Virus record (IMG/VR): IMGVR_UViG_3300005329_000032
Location: 1-21,827 of that record
Direction: 5' to 3' (one strand)
Source of the DNA: a virus
Length of the DNA stretch: 21,827 nucleotides
The notes under the pieces are model-generated. The model saw only the letters and a program-made list of their open reading frames with translations, had not been told where the DNA came from and did no database searches. This document shows, in pieces, positions 266-19,217 of this stretch (its first letter is position 1; each line of letters begins with the position of its first letter). The translations under genes and the position numbers were made by a program.

Positions 266-1792
266 GTGCCTGATTCCGTCATTCCGTTCCGCCATCCCGA
301 GCCTGCACGGGAGCCGCCCGTGGACATCGAGGCCGAACAAGCGCTCCTGGGCGCGGTTTTAATCAATCCCGCCGCCTATCAGAGCATCGAAAATACGCTG
401 CTGCCGGAGCACTTCGCGAACGCGATTAACAGCAGGATTTTCAAAGCCGCAGCCACGCTGATTACCGCCGGAGCCAACCCCGACCCGGTAATGCTCAAGC
501 ACAGCCTGGGCGAAGAGCCTTTGCTGGCCTCGATGGGCGGCACCGCCGGATATATCGCGACGCTGATCCGGGCCGCCGGCCCGCCCAGCAATGCTCCGTT
601 CTATGCCAAGGCGATCAAAGAGGTTCACTTCCGCCGGATCGCCATCGCCGCCGCCACCCGCGTCATCGATGCCGCCAACAATCCCGCGGAACCGATGTCG
701 GATAGCGTCGCACATGCGTCGCACATATTTGGCGCCGTCCCACATGCGTCTCTCACCTTAGTTTGTGCGGCTGACGTGGCTGCGAGGCCAGCTCCCGCCA
801 GACCGTGGATCGTACCCGAATGGTTGCCATCGCGGCAAGTCACGCTACTCACAGGTGATGGCGGCACCGGAAAATCGCAGATCGCGATGCAGCTGCAGGC
901 GTCGGCCTCGGGCGGGACGCTCTGGCTCGGCCTGCCGGTCGTGCAATGCCGCTCGATCGGGTTCTATGCGGAGGACGACGACGACGAGCTGCACCGCCGG
1001 CTGCACGGCATCGCCGCACTGACCCAGGCTTCGCCTGAAACGCTGTCCGACATGCATTGGCGCAGCGTACTCGGCGACGAGGCCGAGATGGTGGAAGTCG
1101 ACGAGACCGGCACGATCCAGCCGACGCCGTACTTCCGCGAGCTTGAGCGCATCGTGCTGAATTACAAGGCGCGACTGCTGGTCCTCGACGCCGTAACGAA
1201 CCTGTTCGGCGGCGACGAGATCCGCCGCCGGCAGGTCAACGCCTTCATTCTGCTGCTGCGCCAGCTCGCCATCAAGATGGACGGCGCGGTGCTGTTGCTG
1301 GGGCATCCCAGCGCATCGGGCATCGCGAGCGGCTCGGGCCTGTCCGGCTCGACCCACTGGCACAATGCCGTGCGGTCCCGGTTCTATTTTGCGCGTGTAA
1401 TCGACGAGGACGCCGACCCCGACGAGCGCACGCTGTCCAAGATGAAAGCAAACTATGCCGGGGCCGGCGACGTGCTTCGGGTGCGCTGGCAGCCGGGCGG
1501 TTTCGTTGCCCTCGACGAGCCCGGCTCGGTCGACCGCGCGGCCCAGGCATCCAAGGCAGAGCGCGTGTTCCTGGCGATCCTGGCCAGCACGTACAACAGC
1601 GGCACATGGACATGCCCAAACCTCACCGCGCGCAACTACGCGCCGCACGTCTTCGCCAGGCACGCTGATCGCGAAGGGCTCGGCAAGCCAGCATTCGAGA
1701 TGGCAATGCACCGTTTGCTGCGTAGCGGCCGTATTTCAACTGAGAGTTATGGCAGACCGTCAGATCCCCGGGCACGTCTGAGACTTATATGA
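266..1792 (+). CDS. Replicative helicase-like ATPase: DnaB N-terminal domain fused to a RepA/RecA-like ATPase
   Basis: This 508-aa protein probably loads or drives the phage replication fork. Residues about 18-125 resemble the DnaB N-terminal domain (conserved EAEQALLGAVL, then an H-x8-RIF-like segment), which in DnaB contacts primase and holds the ring together. A linker (about 140-175) leads into a RecA-like fold of the RepA/AAA_25 kind: Walker A GDGGTGKS at 197-204, an EDDDDEL acidic stretch near 236-242, Walker B LLVLDAV at 304-310, and a GHPS/GSTHWHNAVRSR segment at 347-372 typical of RepA-type hexameric ATPases. About 75 C-terminal residues look like a winged-helix tail. The start is GTG, with GGAGGA 6 nt upstream. 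The linker is encoded by 11-bp repeats that recur just after the gene. Fold assignment is firm; calling it the fork helicase rather than a loader is inference. Confidence 0.85.
   Translation: MPDSVIPFRHPEPAREPPVDIEAEQALLGAVLINPAAYQSIENTLLPEHFANAINSRIFKAAATLITAGANPDPVMLKHSLGEEPLLASMGGTAGYIATLIRAAGPPSNAPFYAKAIKEVHFRRIAIAAATRVIDAANNPAEPMSDSVAHASHIFGAVPHASLTLVCAADVAARPAPARPWIVPEWLPSRQVTLLTGDGGTGKSQIAMQLQASASGGTLWLGLPVVQCRSIGFYAEDDDDELHRRLHGIAALTQASPETLSDMHWRSVLGDEAEMVEVDETGTIQPTPYFRELERIVLNYKARLLVLDAVTNLFGGDEIRRRQVNAFILLLRQLAIKMDGAVLLLGHPSASGIASGSGLSGSTHWHNAVRSRFYFARVIDEDADPDERTLSKMKANYAGAGDVLRVRWQPGGFVALDEPGSVDRAAQASKAERVFLAILASTYNSGTWTCPNLTARNYAPHVFARHADREGLGKPAFEMAMHRLLRSGRISTESYGRPSDPRARLRLI
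707..747 (+). repeat. Iteron-like cluster 1 inside the helicase gene
   Basis: Three copies of an 11-bp unit are present: GTCGCACATGC (707-717), GTCGCACATAT (718-728), and GTCCCACATGC (737-747) after an 8-bp gap. The first two copies are identical in order and phase to those at 1815-1836. The repeats code for the VAHASHI...VPHAS part of the helicase linker, a non-conserved region free to carry DNA signals. Likely binding sites for a replication initiator or regulator; that role is inferred. Confidence 0.7.
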
Positions 1793-1812
1793 TCAAAGGT
1801 GTATCGTATGAA
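1781..1812. other. AT-rich patch beside the second iteron cluster (possible unwinding element)
   Basis: Twenty-two of these 32 bases are A or T, against a window that is clearly GC-rich. The patch covers the last codons of the helicase gene and runs up to the iterons at 1815, the arrangement expected of a DNA-unwinding element. Inference from composition and position only. Confidence 0.4.
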
Positions 1813-2020
1813 CCGTCGCACATGCGTCGCACATATGTCCCACATTCGGCCCCGCCCGCCCAAGGCGCCCCCACGCGTGTCCCCCACCCCCCGTAAGGGG
1901 GGATGGGGACACGCGGGGGCTGGGGGCGCCAGAGCGACACGCGGGCAGTCTTCGGGCCTTAGGCACATCTCGGAAATTCTACCGGCTGTTACCGCCGTAG
2001 TCCGGCAAGCAGCGGAGTAA
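1808..2020 (+). CDS. Doubtful 70-aa ORF spanning the iterons and the large hairpin
   Basis: An open frame runs from ATG 1808 (or the in-frame ATG at 1799) to TAA 2018-2020. Its product would be Arg/Pro/Gly-rich in the middle because it is read through the large GC hairpin, ending in a more protein-like tail (RHISEILPAVTAVVRQAAE). No good ribosome binding site precedes it, and no family is recognised. It may be coding at its 3' end only, or not at all. It is recorded because otherwise 1793-2026 would be an unexplained gene-free gap. Confidence 0.2.
   Translation: MNRRTCVAHMSHIRPRPPKAPPRVSPTPRKGGWGHAGAGGARATRGQSSGLRHISEILPAVTAVVRQAAE
1815..1847 (+). repeat. Iteron-like cluster 2: three tandem 11-bp repeats
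   Basis: GTCGCACATGC (1815-1825), GTCGCACATAT (1826-1836) and GTCCCACATTC (1837-1847) are directly adjacent. An 11-bp period puts each copy on nearly the same face of the helix, as in initiator-bound iterons. The first 22 bp are identical to 707-728. An AT-rich patch lies immediately upstream and a strong hairpin begins 17 bp downstream. Confidence 0.75.
1864..1930. repeat. Very strong GC-rich imperfect palindrome
   Basis: The outer arms 1864-1873 and 1921-1930 are perfect 10-bp complements. Inside them, 1874-1884 pairs with 1905-1915 (11 bp) and 1887-1892 with 1897-1902 (six C against six G), closing on a GTAA loop. The only interruptions are a 5-nt bulge (1916-1920) and a 2x2 internal mismatch. 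No T-tract follows, so it is not a standard terminator. Possible roles are an origin hairpin or single-strand initiation site, an RNA stability element, or an mRNA end formed in another way. Confidence 0.65.
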
Positions 2021-2182: not shown

Positions 2183-2418
2183 CGCTTGCCCAGGTGCTCA
2201 ACGCGGTCGACCGCGACAGCCGGGACGCGCTGGTGCTGCGGGTGGAGGACGCGCTGGAAGGCTACACTGCGCCCGAGGCGTTTTTGGTGACTGCGTATTT
2301 CTGCGCCATCGCCATCAGCCGCCTGCCGTGCGGCGATACCGCCGAGCTGATCGCCGACATGCCGAGGATCATCGCCGACGTGATCCGCAACGAGCTGCAC
2401 AACGTGGTCCGGCAGTAA
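2167..2418 (+). CDS. Small phage protein of unknown function, stop codon at the TnpB element boundary
   Basis: The 83-aa soluble protein is helical and rather acidic (VLNAVDRDSRDALVLRVED..., ending ...RIIADVIRNELHNVVRQ). The ATG at 2167 lies inside the end of the upstream membrane-protein gene, so the two are probably co-translated. I do not recognise the family. Its stop codon TAA (2416-2418) falls at the inferred right end of the TnpB element. The original stop may therefore have been displaced; a TAG in the matching position can be seen on the far side of the element at 3541-3543. It probably formed an operon with the regulator gene at 3547 before the insertion. Confidence 0.6.
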   Translation: MARAVTLAQVLNAVDRDSRDALVLRVEDALEGYTAPEAFLVTAYFCAIAISRLPCGDTAELIADMPRIIADVIRNELHNVVRQ

Positions 2419-3487
2419 CGTCTTCCCTGGCCTTTAGGACGGGGATTCCCGGTCGGTGGAGGGCGACGTTCCGCCCCGAAGCCAGGATGTTTAGAGAGGC
2501 ATTGGTATCGCGATCGTGCAGAACACCACAGCCAGAACAAACCCAACTTCTCACTCCGAGGTCTTTCAACCCTCTCGGGCCGCTGGTTGCGTGACAGCCA
2601 GAACAGACCTGGGAACTGTATCGCTCGTCCGTGTCAACGAACCGTGCTCCGTGCCTCATGGCCTTGTAGCGGAGCATCAAGCGAAGGGTACTCCAGCCGG
2701 CATCGAAAACGGATTTCGCCATCTTCGTGCGGGCCAGTGCCGCGCTGTTCACATCACCGACACAGATCAGGGCATTGGCCCGAACAATGCGGGTGCTGGT
2801 TTCGTGCAGAAAGTGTCGCCGTTGAGCGGCCACCTTCCGGTGAATCTTACGCGCCAGCTTTTTACGGCCGGCACGTTGCGCGCGAGCCAACTGGATCGCC
2901 GCCCTACAAACGTGGCGCGGGTTTCTTATCTTCTCGCCGGTCGAAAGCGCAGCAAGATCCTTCAGACCAAGGTCAATCCCAACCTCGCCCGTGCCGGTCG
3001 GCAGGTCATCGGCAATCTCGCACACGAGGTTGAGATACCAGCGCCCAGAGGCATCCTCGCTAAAACTACCGCAACGGATATCCGGCGGGATCGGGCGCGA
3101 CAGCCACAAGCGATAGTCTCGTCCAAAAAAACGAACGGTATCGTCGCATACCTTGAGCGGCCGGTCGCACTGAAACGGCACCCAGCCGAGAGATCGCTTC
3201 GGACCACGGCTAACGCGCCAGCGCGGACGCCGACGTGCTTTATCCCGGCTCAAAGCGAACTGCTTGCAGACCGCCTGTACAGTGTCGCTGTGCAGTCCGA
3301 GTTCCTTGCTGCTGCCGTTGGTCAGCTTGATCAGATCGAACCCGCCCGGCCAGTGTCGGTTCAGGCGGCGGCTGTCGTTGTGGATGCCACCGCAATAATT
3401 CCAGATTTGGTTGACCGCCAAGGCCATGCGAGCCAGCCGCTTTCCGGCTGTCGCGTCCTTGACCCGATAGCGGTACGTCAAAAGCAT
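2369..3487 (-). CDS. tnpB: TnpB RNA-guided nuclease (IS200/IS605 family) with a displaced catalytic glutamate
   Basis: TnpB proteins are RNA-guided DNA endonucleases, ancestors of Cas12. The start at 3487 gives 372 aa beginning MLLTYRYRVKD, the usual N terminus; an in-frame ATG at 3592 would add 35 residues that belong to the flank. RuvC-I is GIDLGLKDLAALS with Asp172. The RuvC-II segment reads ICVGDVNSAALART, with Gly where the usual Glu stands. A Glu is present just before the zinc ribbon (DERYSSQVCSGC, Glu288). The zinc ribbon is Cys295/298/317/320, and RuvC-III is DRDTNASLNIL with Asp327. The last 15 or so codons read through the element's right end into the neighbouring gene. Opposite orientation to the phage operons and no tnpA partner mark it as an insertion. 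The nuclease is probably active. Confidence 0.9.
   Translation of the reverse strand: MLLTYRYRVKDATAGKRLARMALAVNQIWNYCGGIHNDSRRLNRHWPGGFDLIKLTNGSSKELGLHSDTVQAVCKQFALSRDKARRRPRWRVSRGPKRSLGWVPFQCDRPLKVCDDTVRFFGRDYRLWLSRPIPPDIRCGSFSEDASGRWYLNLVCEIADDLPTGTGEVGIDLGLKDLAALSTGEKIRNPRHVCRAAIQLARAQRAGRKKLARKIHRKVAAQRRHFLHETSTRIVRANALICVGDVNSAALARTKMAKSVFDAGWSTLRLMLRYKAMRHGARFVDTDERYSSQVCSGCHATSGPRGLKDLGVRSWVCSGCGVLHDRDTNASLNILASGRNVALHRPGIPVLKAREDVTAGPRCAARCGSRRR
2416..2560 (-). ncRNA. Predicted TnpB guide RNA (reRNA/omegaRNA) overlapping the 3' end of tnpB
   Basis: In this family the guide RNA is made from the 3' end of tnpB plus the element's right end, with the guide taken from DNA just outside. 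On the minus strand there is a GGGCG/CGCCC hairpin (2461-2476) and then the terminal imperfect hairpin (about 2424-2446). The guide would begin near 2415 and read CTGCCGGACCACGTTGTG, which is the end of the 83-aa phage gene. The 5' limit is a guess. Position and hairpins are seen; the RNA itself is inferred from the family. Confidence 0.45.
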
Positions 3488-3492
3488 TTGTG

Positions 3493-3535
3493 CATTGTAC
3501 TCGCAATGATGCAGCGCGAAAGAAAAGACGTTTCG
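3493..3535 (-). repeat. Probable left end of the TnpB element with two small hairpins
   Basis: Two short inverted repeats sit directly upstream of tnpB: CATTG/CAATG at 3493-3497/3504-3508 and CGAAA/TTTCG at 3517-3521/3531-3535. Subterminal hairpins are what a TnpA transposase recognises at the left end of IS200/IS605 elements. The exact cleavage site cannot be fixed from one copy. Confidence 0.4.
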
Positions 3536-3546
3536 AATTGTAGGCA

Positions 3547-4077
3547 ATGGCAATGAGCCGCGCATCCCGCTTCCTCGCTGCATTGGATGCATCTTTGCCG
3601 CCCGAGCGCCTGCAGCATGGCCGGGTCGAGCGCTCCCACGAAACCGTGGCGGACGCCTCGGGCGCTATCGGGAGGCCATATATCGCCGAGGGCCTGCTCG
3701 GCATGCTGGAGCGCCGCGGCCAGATCAGCCGGGCGCAGCGCCAGGCGGGCGAGCAGTTCTCCGAGTGGTTCAGACTGGCGCAACTCGATCCGTTGCGCGC
3801 CGCCGACCTCGGCCAGCGCATCCCATCCGGACGACTTCCGAGCGGCGTCGCTATCGAACACGCCCGCCGGCGCGTCAATGCCGCGCTCGACGCAACAGGC
3901 GGCATCGGCAGTCCGTGCGGCTGCGCCTGCTGGTACATCCTCGGCCTCGAACTCACCGTCGCCGAGTTCGCCCGCCGTGAGGGCTGGTCGGGCCGCCCGA
4001 TGCGCCACGAGACGGCCAAGCACTTGCTGTTTGGCGCGCTCAGCGTCCTGGCCGCCCACTACGAAAAAAACCGTTGA
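3547..4077 (+). CDS. Putative phage late-gene regulator (DUF6456-like helical protein)
   Basis: A 176-aa protein starting at ATG 3547 (ATG 3553 is an alternative); no strong ribosome binding site is visible, perhaps because the TnpB element landed just upstream. The C-terminal third (about 125-172) carries CxCxxWYILGLELTVAEFARREGWSGRP...AKHLLFGALSVLAAHYE, which reads like a sigma-region-4/helix-turn-helix segment and resembles alphaproteobacterial DUF6456-type proteins. The N-terminal half is basic and helical. Its stop codon overlaps the -35 box of the promoter in front of the packaging genes, the position held by late activators or antiterminators (Q, ArpU or RinA types) in other phages. 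The family resemblance is moderate; the regulatory role is inferred from fold and place. Confidence 0.6.
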   Translation: MAMSRASRFLAALDASLPPERLQHGRVERSHETVADASGAIGRPYIAEGLLGMLERRGQISRAQRQAGEQFSEWFRLAQLDPLRAADLGQRIPSGRLPSGVAIEHARRRVNAALDATGGIGSPCGCACWYILGLELTVAEFARREGWSGRPMRHETAKHLLFGALSVLAAHYEKNR

Positions 4078-4102
4078 CAAACCGTGGAATTTGTTTTGAT
4101 GA
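4074..4102 (+). promoter_or_regulatory. Candidate late promoter
   Basis: A perfect TTGACA (-35) occupies 4074-4079, overlapping the stop codon of the regulator gene. A weak -10 follows in TTTTGATGATTTAT (TGATGA at 4097-4102 with a 17-nt spacer, or GATGAT one base on). The poor -10 would fit a promoter needing an activator. This is the only promoter-like site I noticed ahead of the packaging genes. Confidence 0.55.
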
Positions 4103-16968: not shown

Positions 16969-17399
16969 TGAACGGCGGCACGCTATTGGAAATCTCCGGG
17001 CCTGGGATTCCGACCTGGGCCTCGCGTGGACTGACGCAGACGCTCGACCCGATCGACGCCGCGTCGAGCCTGATGCGCACGGTGAACGGCGACCTCGTCG
17101 ATTTCAGCCCGCCGCAGATGCGCAAATACAAGTCCACGATCAGTTGTACGGATATCGAGGGGCCCGCCCTCGATGGCGTGTGGCCGGGCATGGAGTTGAC
17201 CGTTAACTGCGTCTCGGAGTTGGGGTTCCTTACAATCAGCGGTGCGCCAACCCGTCCCGTCGTGCCGGATTCCTCCCGGCTTGTCGGCGATTACACGTTT
17301 TATAGGCCGCAGATCGTGTTCCGGGTCGTCAGCTACACCGTGAGTACCGACGAGTACGGCGCGGCGGTCGCCTGGACATTGGAACTCTCCGAGGCATAG
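16965..17399 (+). CDS. Minor/distal tail protein of unknown family
   Basis: A 144-aa protein starting at GTG 16965 or ATG 16968, both within the tape-measure stop. It is beta-rich (GTLLEISGPGIPTWASRGLTQTL..., MRKYKSTISCTDIEGPALDGVWPGMELTVNCVSEL, QIVFRVVSYTVSTDEYGAAVAWTLELSEA). Its place directly after the tape measure is where a distal tail protein lies in siphoviruses. The repeated use of 'W.G..L.V' and the closing 'W.LELSE' pattern look like a ring-forming tail protein. Family not recognised; the role is inferred from gene order. Confidence 0.65.
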   Translation: MMNGGTLLEISGPGIPTWASRGLTQTLDPIDAASSLMRTVNGDLVDFSPPQMRKYKSTISCTDIEGPALDGVWPGMELTVNCVSELGFLTISGAPTRPVVPDSSRLVGDYTFYRPQIVFRVVSYTVSTDEYGAAVAWTLELSEA

Positions 17400-17402
17400 G
17401 CG

Positions 17403-19217
17403 GTGCCGGGGCCGTTCTATCTGGCATACATCGCCGCGCCCGAGCCATTCGACCCGGTGCTGCACGCCGTTGAAGACGAGCAGGTCGTCGCCCTGACGAT
17501 AAGCCAAGACGAGGGCGACTTCGCGTCGCTTCAGATCACCGTGCGCAACCCCGGCGGTTTGCTTGCGTCAGGGCGGCGCTCGTGGTGCTGGCTGTCGTGG
17601 GATGACGGCGGCGAGGTGGTGCCGTTGTTTACTGGCCGTAACGTTGCCGTGCCCGAGCAGCTCGACGGCGAGACGGTGCGGCTGCTGTTCATGGCGCGGC
17701 CGCTAGACTTCGATAGCGTTAAAAGCGATTACGCCACCACGTTGAAGACCCTGCCGTACTGGGACCCCGTTTGGTTCCTCGGCGATTTGGAGGACGCCGA
17801 TGCCGTTCTCGATGCCTACGGCGCGCAATGGCACATCGACCGGGTCACTTTGGCGCTGACGCACTCGGACGAGTGCGAAGGCGAAGACGGCGAGATGCTG
17901 GTCGGCGAAGAGGATCACACCTACGACAATTTCGAGATGTCCTACACCAATCCGCCGCTGAGCCAGGTCGATATCGAGGGCACGCTGACCTGGACGCAAT
18001 CGGGCGCCGGCACAATCGACCTCACGAAGCGCATTACCCAGGAGTTCAAGGCCCAGAAGACGATATACGCTTACGTCGATTCCTACACCGGGCTAATTAC
18101 GACGCTAACCGGCGACGGGCTGATGAACTCGTGGCCGAAGGGCGGGACTACGTTTGGCGGCGGGTGGAGCGTCTCGAACGACACCAGCATCGGAGATGCC
18201 TCGGGCAGCTTCACCCGATACGAGCTGACGCGGAAATACCGCGGGGTCCGCGGGAGCTACCCAGAGGGCGACGAGGACCGTTCGGTCAGCGCCTATTACT
18301 TTAGATCGCACCAAGACTACGAAGTGACGTATGACGTCTATGCGTTCGAGCAGCACACGTTGTTCGATTGGGAGGCGGAAAAGAAACGCACCGAGACGAT
18401 AAAGCTCTCGATGGTCGCGGACATCCAGGATGTGCTCGCCGAGCCGGAAGACGAGGCGAACATCGAGAAAATCACCGTCTCGGCTGACGCAACCGTCACC
18501 GAGCCGGATGACGACGGCGCGATGCCGATCGGCGATAAGCGCCGCAAGGCGTACCTGCCGACCGACCGCGGCAATGACAGCGTGCAGCATCTGCTGCTTT
18601 TGGGGCGGGCGTTGCTGCGGCGCCGCGCGCGAGCCGTGGAAATCCGCTGTCGGGTGCCGTGGGAAATTGGTATCGGCGCCAGCCTGCGGATGAACGCGCG
18701 GGTCACCGACCGTCGCCTGCCGGGCGGCGAGGCATCCGGCAAGATCATCGGGTATGAGCTGAGTGCGGCAGGCACTGGCGAGTTCTATGCCGAGTTGACG
18801 ATCGGCTGTTCCGTAGGCCGCGGCGGCGGCGTCTTGGCAGCGCCCGGCGCGCCGACCTGGGTCAATGACGGCTATGTGTACGGCGGCTACCAGATCGCGG
18901 CTGGCGCGGGCGTCACGGTGCTCACCGGCGATATCGTGTATCAGACGCTAGACGATTTCACGGTCGACGACGACGGCGTCGATCTGTTGTCGCTGGATGC
19001 GACAACCGCCGTTCAAACCCTGACGGTGACCAACGGATTGGGTCCGCAGATCCTGGAGCTGGCCGGCAGCGACGACCCCGCCAATGCAATGAAGGATGCG
19101 CCGACCGAGGTGTGCGTGCAGCTCGTGCCGATGGCCGATCTTGAGTTCGAGACGATCTTCACGCCATCGGTCGAACTGGTGCCGTTGCCCAAGACAATCG
19201 ACCTGGAGGCGGCGTAG
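17403..19217 (+). CDS. Tail hub / baseplate protein
   Basis: A 604-aa protein starting at GTG 17403, three bases after the previous stop. The first 150 residues (FYLAYIAAPEPFDP..., QVVALTISQDEGDFASLQITVRNPGGLL, PLFTGRNVAVPEQLDGETVRLLFMARPLDFDSVK) are the two-barrel hub pattern of gp27-like/tail-hub proteins. The middle (about 180-330) is rich in aromatic and acidic residues, and the part near 410-470 (LLLLGRALLRRRARAVEIRCRVPWEI...LRMNARVTDRRLPGG, GKIIGYELSA) is the closing hub barrel. The C-terminal 120 residues are an extra acidic beta domain. The hub joins tail tube to tip. The assignment rests on pattern and gene order. Confidence 0.65.
   Translation: MPGPFYLAYIAAPEPFDPVLHAVEDEQVVALTISQDEGDFASLQITVRNPGGLLASGRRSWCWLSWDDGGEVVPLFTGRNVAVPEQLDGETVRLLFMARPLDFDSVKSDYATTLKTLPYWDPVWFLGDLEDADAVLDAYGAQWHIDRVTLALTHSDECEGEDGEMLVGEEDHTYDNFEMSYTNPPLSQVDIEGTLTWTQSGAGTIDLTKRITQEFKAQKTIYAYVDSYTGLITTLTGDGLMNSWPKGGTTFGGGWSVSNDTSIGDASGSFTRYELTRKYRGVRGSYPEGDEDRSVSAYYFRSHQDYEVTYDVYAFEQHTLFDWEAEKKRTETIKLSMVADIQDVLAEPEDEANIEKITVSADATVTEPDDDGAMPIGDKRRKAYLPTDRGNDSVQHLLLLGRALLRRRARAVEIRCRVPWEIGIGASLRMNARVTDRRLPGGEASGKIIGYELSAAGTGEFYAELTIGCSVGRGGGVLAAPGAPTWVNDGYVYGGYQIAAGAGVTVLTGDIVYQTLDDFTVDDDGVDLLSLDATTAVQTLTVTNGLGPQILELAGSDDPANAMKDAPTEVCVQLVPMADLEFETIFTPSVELVPLPKTIDLEAA

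Follow-up and report, generated by a model that had tools for sequence, protein, structure and literature searches.

The segment directly behind the replication ATPase gene of this 21.8-kb virus DNA is very probably a phage replication origin whose initiator is encoded by the immediately preceding gene, as indicated by sequence comparison and structure models. The whole stretch of 21,827 nucleotides that was analysed is referred to as the window. The anatomy of the segment, the recurrence of the layout across the ATPase family, the 11-bp phasing of the repeats, and the co-variation of the iterons with the winged-helix part of the ATPase were observed directly. Judged from sequence, roughly a hundred related phages and prophages share this layout with differing repeats, phage WO of Wolbachia among them.

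The replication ATPase and the elements around its gene

The replication ATPase gene occupied positions 266 to 1792 (+). Its product carried a DnaB_N domain (aa 17-119, Pfam), an AAA_25/RSF1010-RepA-like helicase domain (aa 168-349, Pfam and PDB profile match), and a C-terminus predicted to be a winged helix. When the family profile was compared with the PDB, the best solved relative was RSF1010 RepA (1g8y, E 3.5e-21). Of the 339 profile positions, the RepA chain covered only 4-241, which leaves the C-terminal part of the ATPase unmatched. The AlphaFold2 model (mean pLDDT of 87 for the whole ATPase and 88 for the C-terminal part modelled alone) matched 1nlf in Foldseek with a TM of 0.78 over the target. 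In this model, residues ~422-508 were arranged as helix-helix-helix-strand-strand, and when the winged helix was searched by itself in Foldseek, the top matches were mostly winged-helix proteins, although these matches were weak (best E 0.05). The coding segment of the winged helix, 1517 to 1789 (+), is the candidate iteron reader on the basis of the model, Foldseek, and iteron co-variation.

The DnaB_N domain was nearest to the PRK09165 DnaB model. The identity of the protein as a DnaB replicative helicase was rejected, because only the DnaB_N domain was present, the ATPase domain was AAA_25, and the scores were far under the NCBIfam DnaB cut-offs. No close relatives of the whole ATPase protein were found in the genome scan. 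Furthermore, no separate RepC-like iteron-binding initiator was recognised by eye among the window ORFs or in the 5 kb upstream in L006, a relative with a 96% identical protein.

The three elements named in the original prediction were all recovered behind the gene. The AT-rich patch at 1781 to 1812, a possible unwinding element by base composition, had 68.75% A/T in a window of 64% G+C; only 0.055% of the 32-bp stretches were as AT-rich, and all of them lay here or around 4074-4088. Immediately past the gene, array B (1815 to 1847, +) held three iterons of 11 bp, GTCGCACAT/GTCGCACAT/GTCCCACAT at 1815, 1826, and 1837, with a period of exactly 11. The period-11 triple was absent from 60 dinucleotide shuffles, as was a triple of any period from 9 to 14. 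By a generic repeat score, array B with its three copies fell below the control 95th percentile; what gives it weight is its position, its retention in L006, the presence of a second array, and the pattern across the family. The GC-rich hairpin at 1864 to 1930, folded as DNA, had 27 pairs closed by GTAA, with a folding energy of −39.4 kcal/mol and a z of −6.6, and contained a 2x2 internal loop and a 5-nt bulge. Between the window and L006, the distal stem was kept via three compensatory pair changes. No Rfam match was found in the window. The 3′ arm of the hairpin (1897-1926, +) held four G-tracts (GGGGGGATGGGGACACGCGGGGGCTGGGGG) resembling a G-quadruplex. A G-quadruplex was rejected, as comparison of the two sequences showed that the G-tracts of the window were lost in L006.

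A second array of perfect copies, overlooked in the original prediction, was found inside the gene. Array A (707 to 745, +) comprised three copies of GTCNCACAT, the 9-bp iteron core common to both arrays, at 707, 718, and 737, at the junction of the DnaB_N and AAA_25 domains. Positions 706-728 were identical to 1814-1836 over 23 bp, whereas no exact repeat longer than 17 arose in 60 shuffles. No perfect copies of GTCNCACAT occurred in the window outside arrays A and B, and L006 retained both arrays. In the array A cores, none of the 9 third positions differed between L006 and the window, compared with 107 of 500 (21%) in the rest of the gene, a difference that alone was not significant. The next relative after L006, L013, had the DnaB_N fusion without array A, and an inverted array was present in the N-terminal linker of the Acidiphilium locus L093. 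Intragenic arrays were thus rejected as a family rule, being seen only in the window, L006, and (inverted) L093. Array A may be a second binding site, perhaps serving copy control by array pairing, or autoregulation.

Elsewhere in the window, a TnpB-type transposase ORF was located at 2369-3592 (−), and L006 lacked the insert, which falls between 2365 and 3571 of the window. A tRNA-Ser call by ARAGORN at 17348-17435 (+) spanned two large adjoining ORFs of the tail region and was probably spurious; the tRNA scan of the window gave nothing beyond this call.

Recurrence of the layout among ATPase relatives

Similarity in the ATPase domain was the only criterion for picking the family loci, blind to the repeats; 80 loci came from viral contigs and 61 from genomes, the latter mostly of Alphaproteobacteria. 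In 74% of 137 loci, an exact 7-mer occurred at least three times no further than 250 bp from the ATPase stop; the corresponding values were 3.5% for 3441 tiles cut from the same DNA and 1.2% for shuffles. For at least four copies, the values were 46% of the 137 loci, 0.2% of tiles, and 0.07% of shuffles. With anchoring at the domain end in 120 non-redundant loci, the proportions were 81% against 5.6% for at least three copies, and 55% against 0.4% for at least four. When up to two mismatches were allowed, 61% of loci exceeded the control 99th percentile. About a fifth of the family loci, including the window, showed no clear array by exact 7-mers. The original prediction had named relatives that keep the helicase without the repeats as the refuting case; the opposite was seen, with arrays behind the ATPase gene in most relatives, which supports, at the level of sequence, its interpretation of iterons beside the ATPase gene as an origin layout.

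The spacing between copies had its main peak at 11 bp, with lesser peaks near 21-24 and 33-37 bp. The first copy started at a median of 6 nt past the ATPase stop; in several loci the arrays reached into the 3′ end of the ATPase gene, and some ORFs ran through the array. The orientation of the repeats was constant relative to the gene: TTCCAAC was forward in 16 loci and reverse in 1, and TGCAAC in 9 and 0, respectively. The repeat sequences themselves varied from locus to locus. An exact scan of viral contigs for the window repeat returned only a close relative and one unrelated 4-kb contig. This unrelated contig (L004) carried arrays of GTCACACAT together with inverted copies in a non-coding stretch at 1890-2190.

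In Wolbachia phage WO (KX522565, L009), 9-bp repeats of the form AAGWTGGCA occupied both strands where the RepA-like ATPase gene ends and beyond it. There were 17 matches in the 5.7-kb WO locus against 3.3 expected, most of them within ~210 bp. The stretch L009 3657-3865 is accordingly a predicted WO origin from its sequence. An AT run and a CCTCCTATATAGAGG palindrome accompanied the repeats in this stretch. The AAGWTGGCA repeat was absent from the WO variant L007.

A second, C-rich module was also detected behind the ATPase stop. The most enriched 8-mers there were CATACCCC, ATACCCCC, and their relatives. An element of C-run/ATA/C-run occurred in 44 of 124 loci against 2 of 3136 tiles, and on the opposite strand in 1 of 124; 89% of the iteron copies lay 5′ of it. 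A C-run/TA/G-run hairpin was found in 19 of 124 loci against 2 of 3136 tiles, and either C-rich form was present in 65 of 124. The window hairpin groups with these element and hairpin forms of the family. Moreover, the folding energy behind the ATPase gene was below that of control tiles (p 2e-9). An AT-rich TAAGTCATTGA-like element was present in 16 of 124 loci (e.g., L083, L093, L113, L114, and L011) against 1.1% of tiles; it was often paired, ~53-70 bp apart, and sometimes began with the ATPase stop codon. The AT-rich unwinding element of the original prediction did not extend to the family as a whole, in which no common AT peak was observed, and a GC-skew profile, which had been proposed as a check, gave no switch at the array within the flanks examined.

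The N-terminal part of the ATPase differed among the family members. A DnaB_N N-terminus was found in the window and L013, Prim-Pol in L022, L033, L050, L070, and L083, and PriCT_2 in L070 and L142, and the N-terminus of L021, L028, and L136 had no Pfam domain. We read this as priming being supplied or recruited by swappable N-terminal parts, with the helicase and winged helix constant and most members carrying an array behind the gene.

Co-variation of iterons and the winged helix

Co-variation was examined over all locus pairs, using arrays strictly after the stop and dropping the last 8 protein residues. When core identity was controlled for, iteron similarity correlated with the identity of the winged helix (partial r 0.24, Mantel p 0.0005); when the winged helix was controlled for, no correlation was found with the core (0.07, p 0.08). 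The effect persisted in pairs with <50% core identity (0.20, p 0.001). In sliding windows along the protein, the values were approximately zero or slightly negative across most of the ATPase core and rose only from residue 448, with the maximum (0.35) at the wing, residues 490-504. Joint transfer could mimic such co-variation, because the coding DNA of the winged helix adjoins the array. The synonymous identity of this segment had no residual effect on iteron similarity (−0.02), which reduces the concern about linkage and does not remove it, because synonymous sites are near saturation at such distances. The predicted winged helix, and the co-variation of its sequence with that of the repeats, thus back the earlier suggestion that the repeats may be bound by the ATPase.

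Proposed origin model, alternatives, and known systems

Binding, melting, helicase loading, and origin function are what we infer from the sequences and models. In the proposed model, the C-terminal winged helix would bind the 11-bp iterons; as these are spaced one helical turn apart, the protomers are proposed to align along the same face of the double helix. The RecA-fold domain of the RSF1010-RepA type would form a ring and open the DNA at the AT patch or at the hairpin/C-rich module. The DnaB_N domain would recruit the host primase, and Prim-Pol domains may fill this role in other family members.

The array could instead be an operator, through which the winged helix of the ATPase regulates its own operon or downstream genes, with the hairpin ending the transcript and replication starting elsewhere. 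Such a role would suit an array right after the stop codon, a stable hairpin, and a fold common among regulators. However, regulators normally bind promoters, whereas these arrays lie behind the gene and enter its 3′ end in several loci. The same position is occupied by the characterised or proposed origins of SaPI Rep, SCCmec Cch2, and pRN1 (PMC7581432, PMC4234260). In addition, the arrays accompany a helicase fused to priming-type domains, and no T run follows the hairpin, so that we consider the operator unlikely.

A different kind of phage site, for example one used in packaging or partition, that lies beside the ATPase gene by chance is more improbable still. A terminase gene is located 3.8 kb downstream, and partition sites are also marked by tandem repeats, but the sequence of the array tracks the winged helix of the ATPase, and its position is tied to the ATPase gene across many genera. 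The three copies of array B are few, as chance repeats might be, yet the triple never arose in shuffles, was kept between relatives, and had enriched counterparts family-wide. A dispersed host repeat is at odds with the absence of perfect copies outside the two arrays from the window and from 17 kb of L006, and we give either of these last explanations hardly any credence.

Within the origin reading, a further proposal is that the family forms a class of self-sufficient initiators, RecA-fold (RSF1010-RepA-like) helicases that would each use a built-in winged helix to read the iterons following their own gene. This proposal is tentative, and we give it somewhat less than even weight. In such a class, the helicase would need neither DnaA nor a loader nor a separate Rep for its own loading, and a GC-rich, strand-specific CCCC-ATA-CCCC/hairpin module would be opened in place of an AT-rich element. 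Interchangeable N-terminal domains (Prim-Pol, PriCT_2, and DnaB_N) would supply or recruit the primase.

Several known replication systems can be compared with the window. The oriV of RSF1010 contains iterons and hairpins, and its iterons are longer and bound by a separate protein, RepC. RSF1010 RepA, which is hexameric, belongs to the same RecA-fold AAA_25 helicase family as the window ATPase, by profile and fold, but the latter has a fused, predicted winged helix instead of a separate RepC. In RSF1010 a hairpin acts as a primase start site (ssi), and the window hairpin may have a similar use. The lambda O protein is a non-helicase initiator with longer iterons, and its origin lies inside the O gene; this resembles array A, whereas the main array of the window is outside the gene.

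As reported in PMC7581432 (citing Ubeda 2007), SaPI Rep uses its C-terminal domain to bind iterons that lie immediately downstream of the rep gene. SCCmec Cch2 likewise binds repeats, downstream of its operon (PMC7581432), and an origin 3′ of rep is common to PICIs (PMC6092414). The window resembles the SaPI/PICI systems in having a helicase-initiator with a C-terminal DNA-binding domain (here predicted), a short-iteron array immediately 3′ of its own gene (here by position), and a primase nearby or fused. On the other hand, two iteron sets flank an AT-rich region in SaPI/PICI, whereas the window has one set after the gene, and the SaPI/PICI Reps are helicases of the DUF927 or D5/Primase_Cterm types (PMC7581432), unlike the AAA_25/RSF1010-RepA-like RecA-fold of the window. 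For pRN1, a stem-loop directly downstream of the replication gene is required, placed similarly to the window hairpin, and its ORF904 is a Prim-Pol/helicase/winged-helix protein (PMC4234260). However, pRN1 is an archaeal plasmid with an SF3 helicase, for which the stem-loop suffices without iterons (PMC4234260), and the window has an AAA_25 helicase. The window system would work like SaPI/PICI Rep-ori, SCCmec Cch2, and pRN1 and is not a member of that group, because its helicase is from another family. For AAA_25 phage ATPases, no report of this layout was found in the open-access literature searched, outside which most subscription journals lie.

The result offers a map of predicted origins that can be put to the test in a large set of phages and prophages, as well as in phage WO; the genome-derived members of this set come almost exclusively from Alphaproteobacteria. 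Furthermore, the matched pairs of winged helix and iteron form a natural series for learning the rules of DNA reading. The layout of an initiator directly before its origin is already known for SaPI- and pRN1-type helicases of other families, and the present findings would show that RecA-fold helicases, too, became origin-reading initiators encoded directly before their origin.
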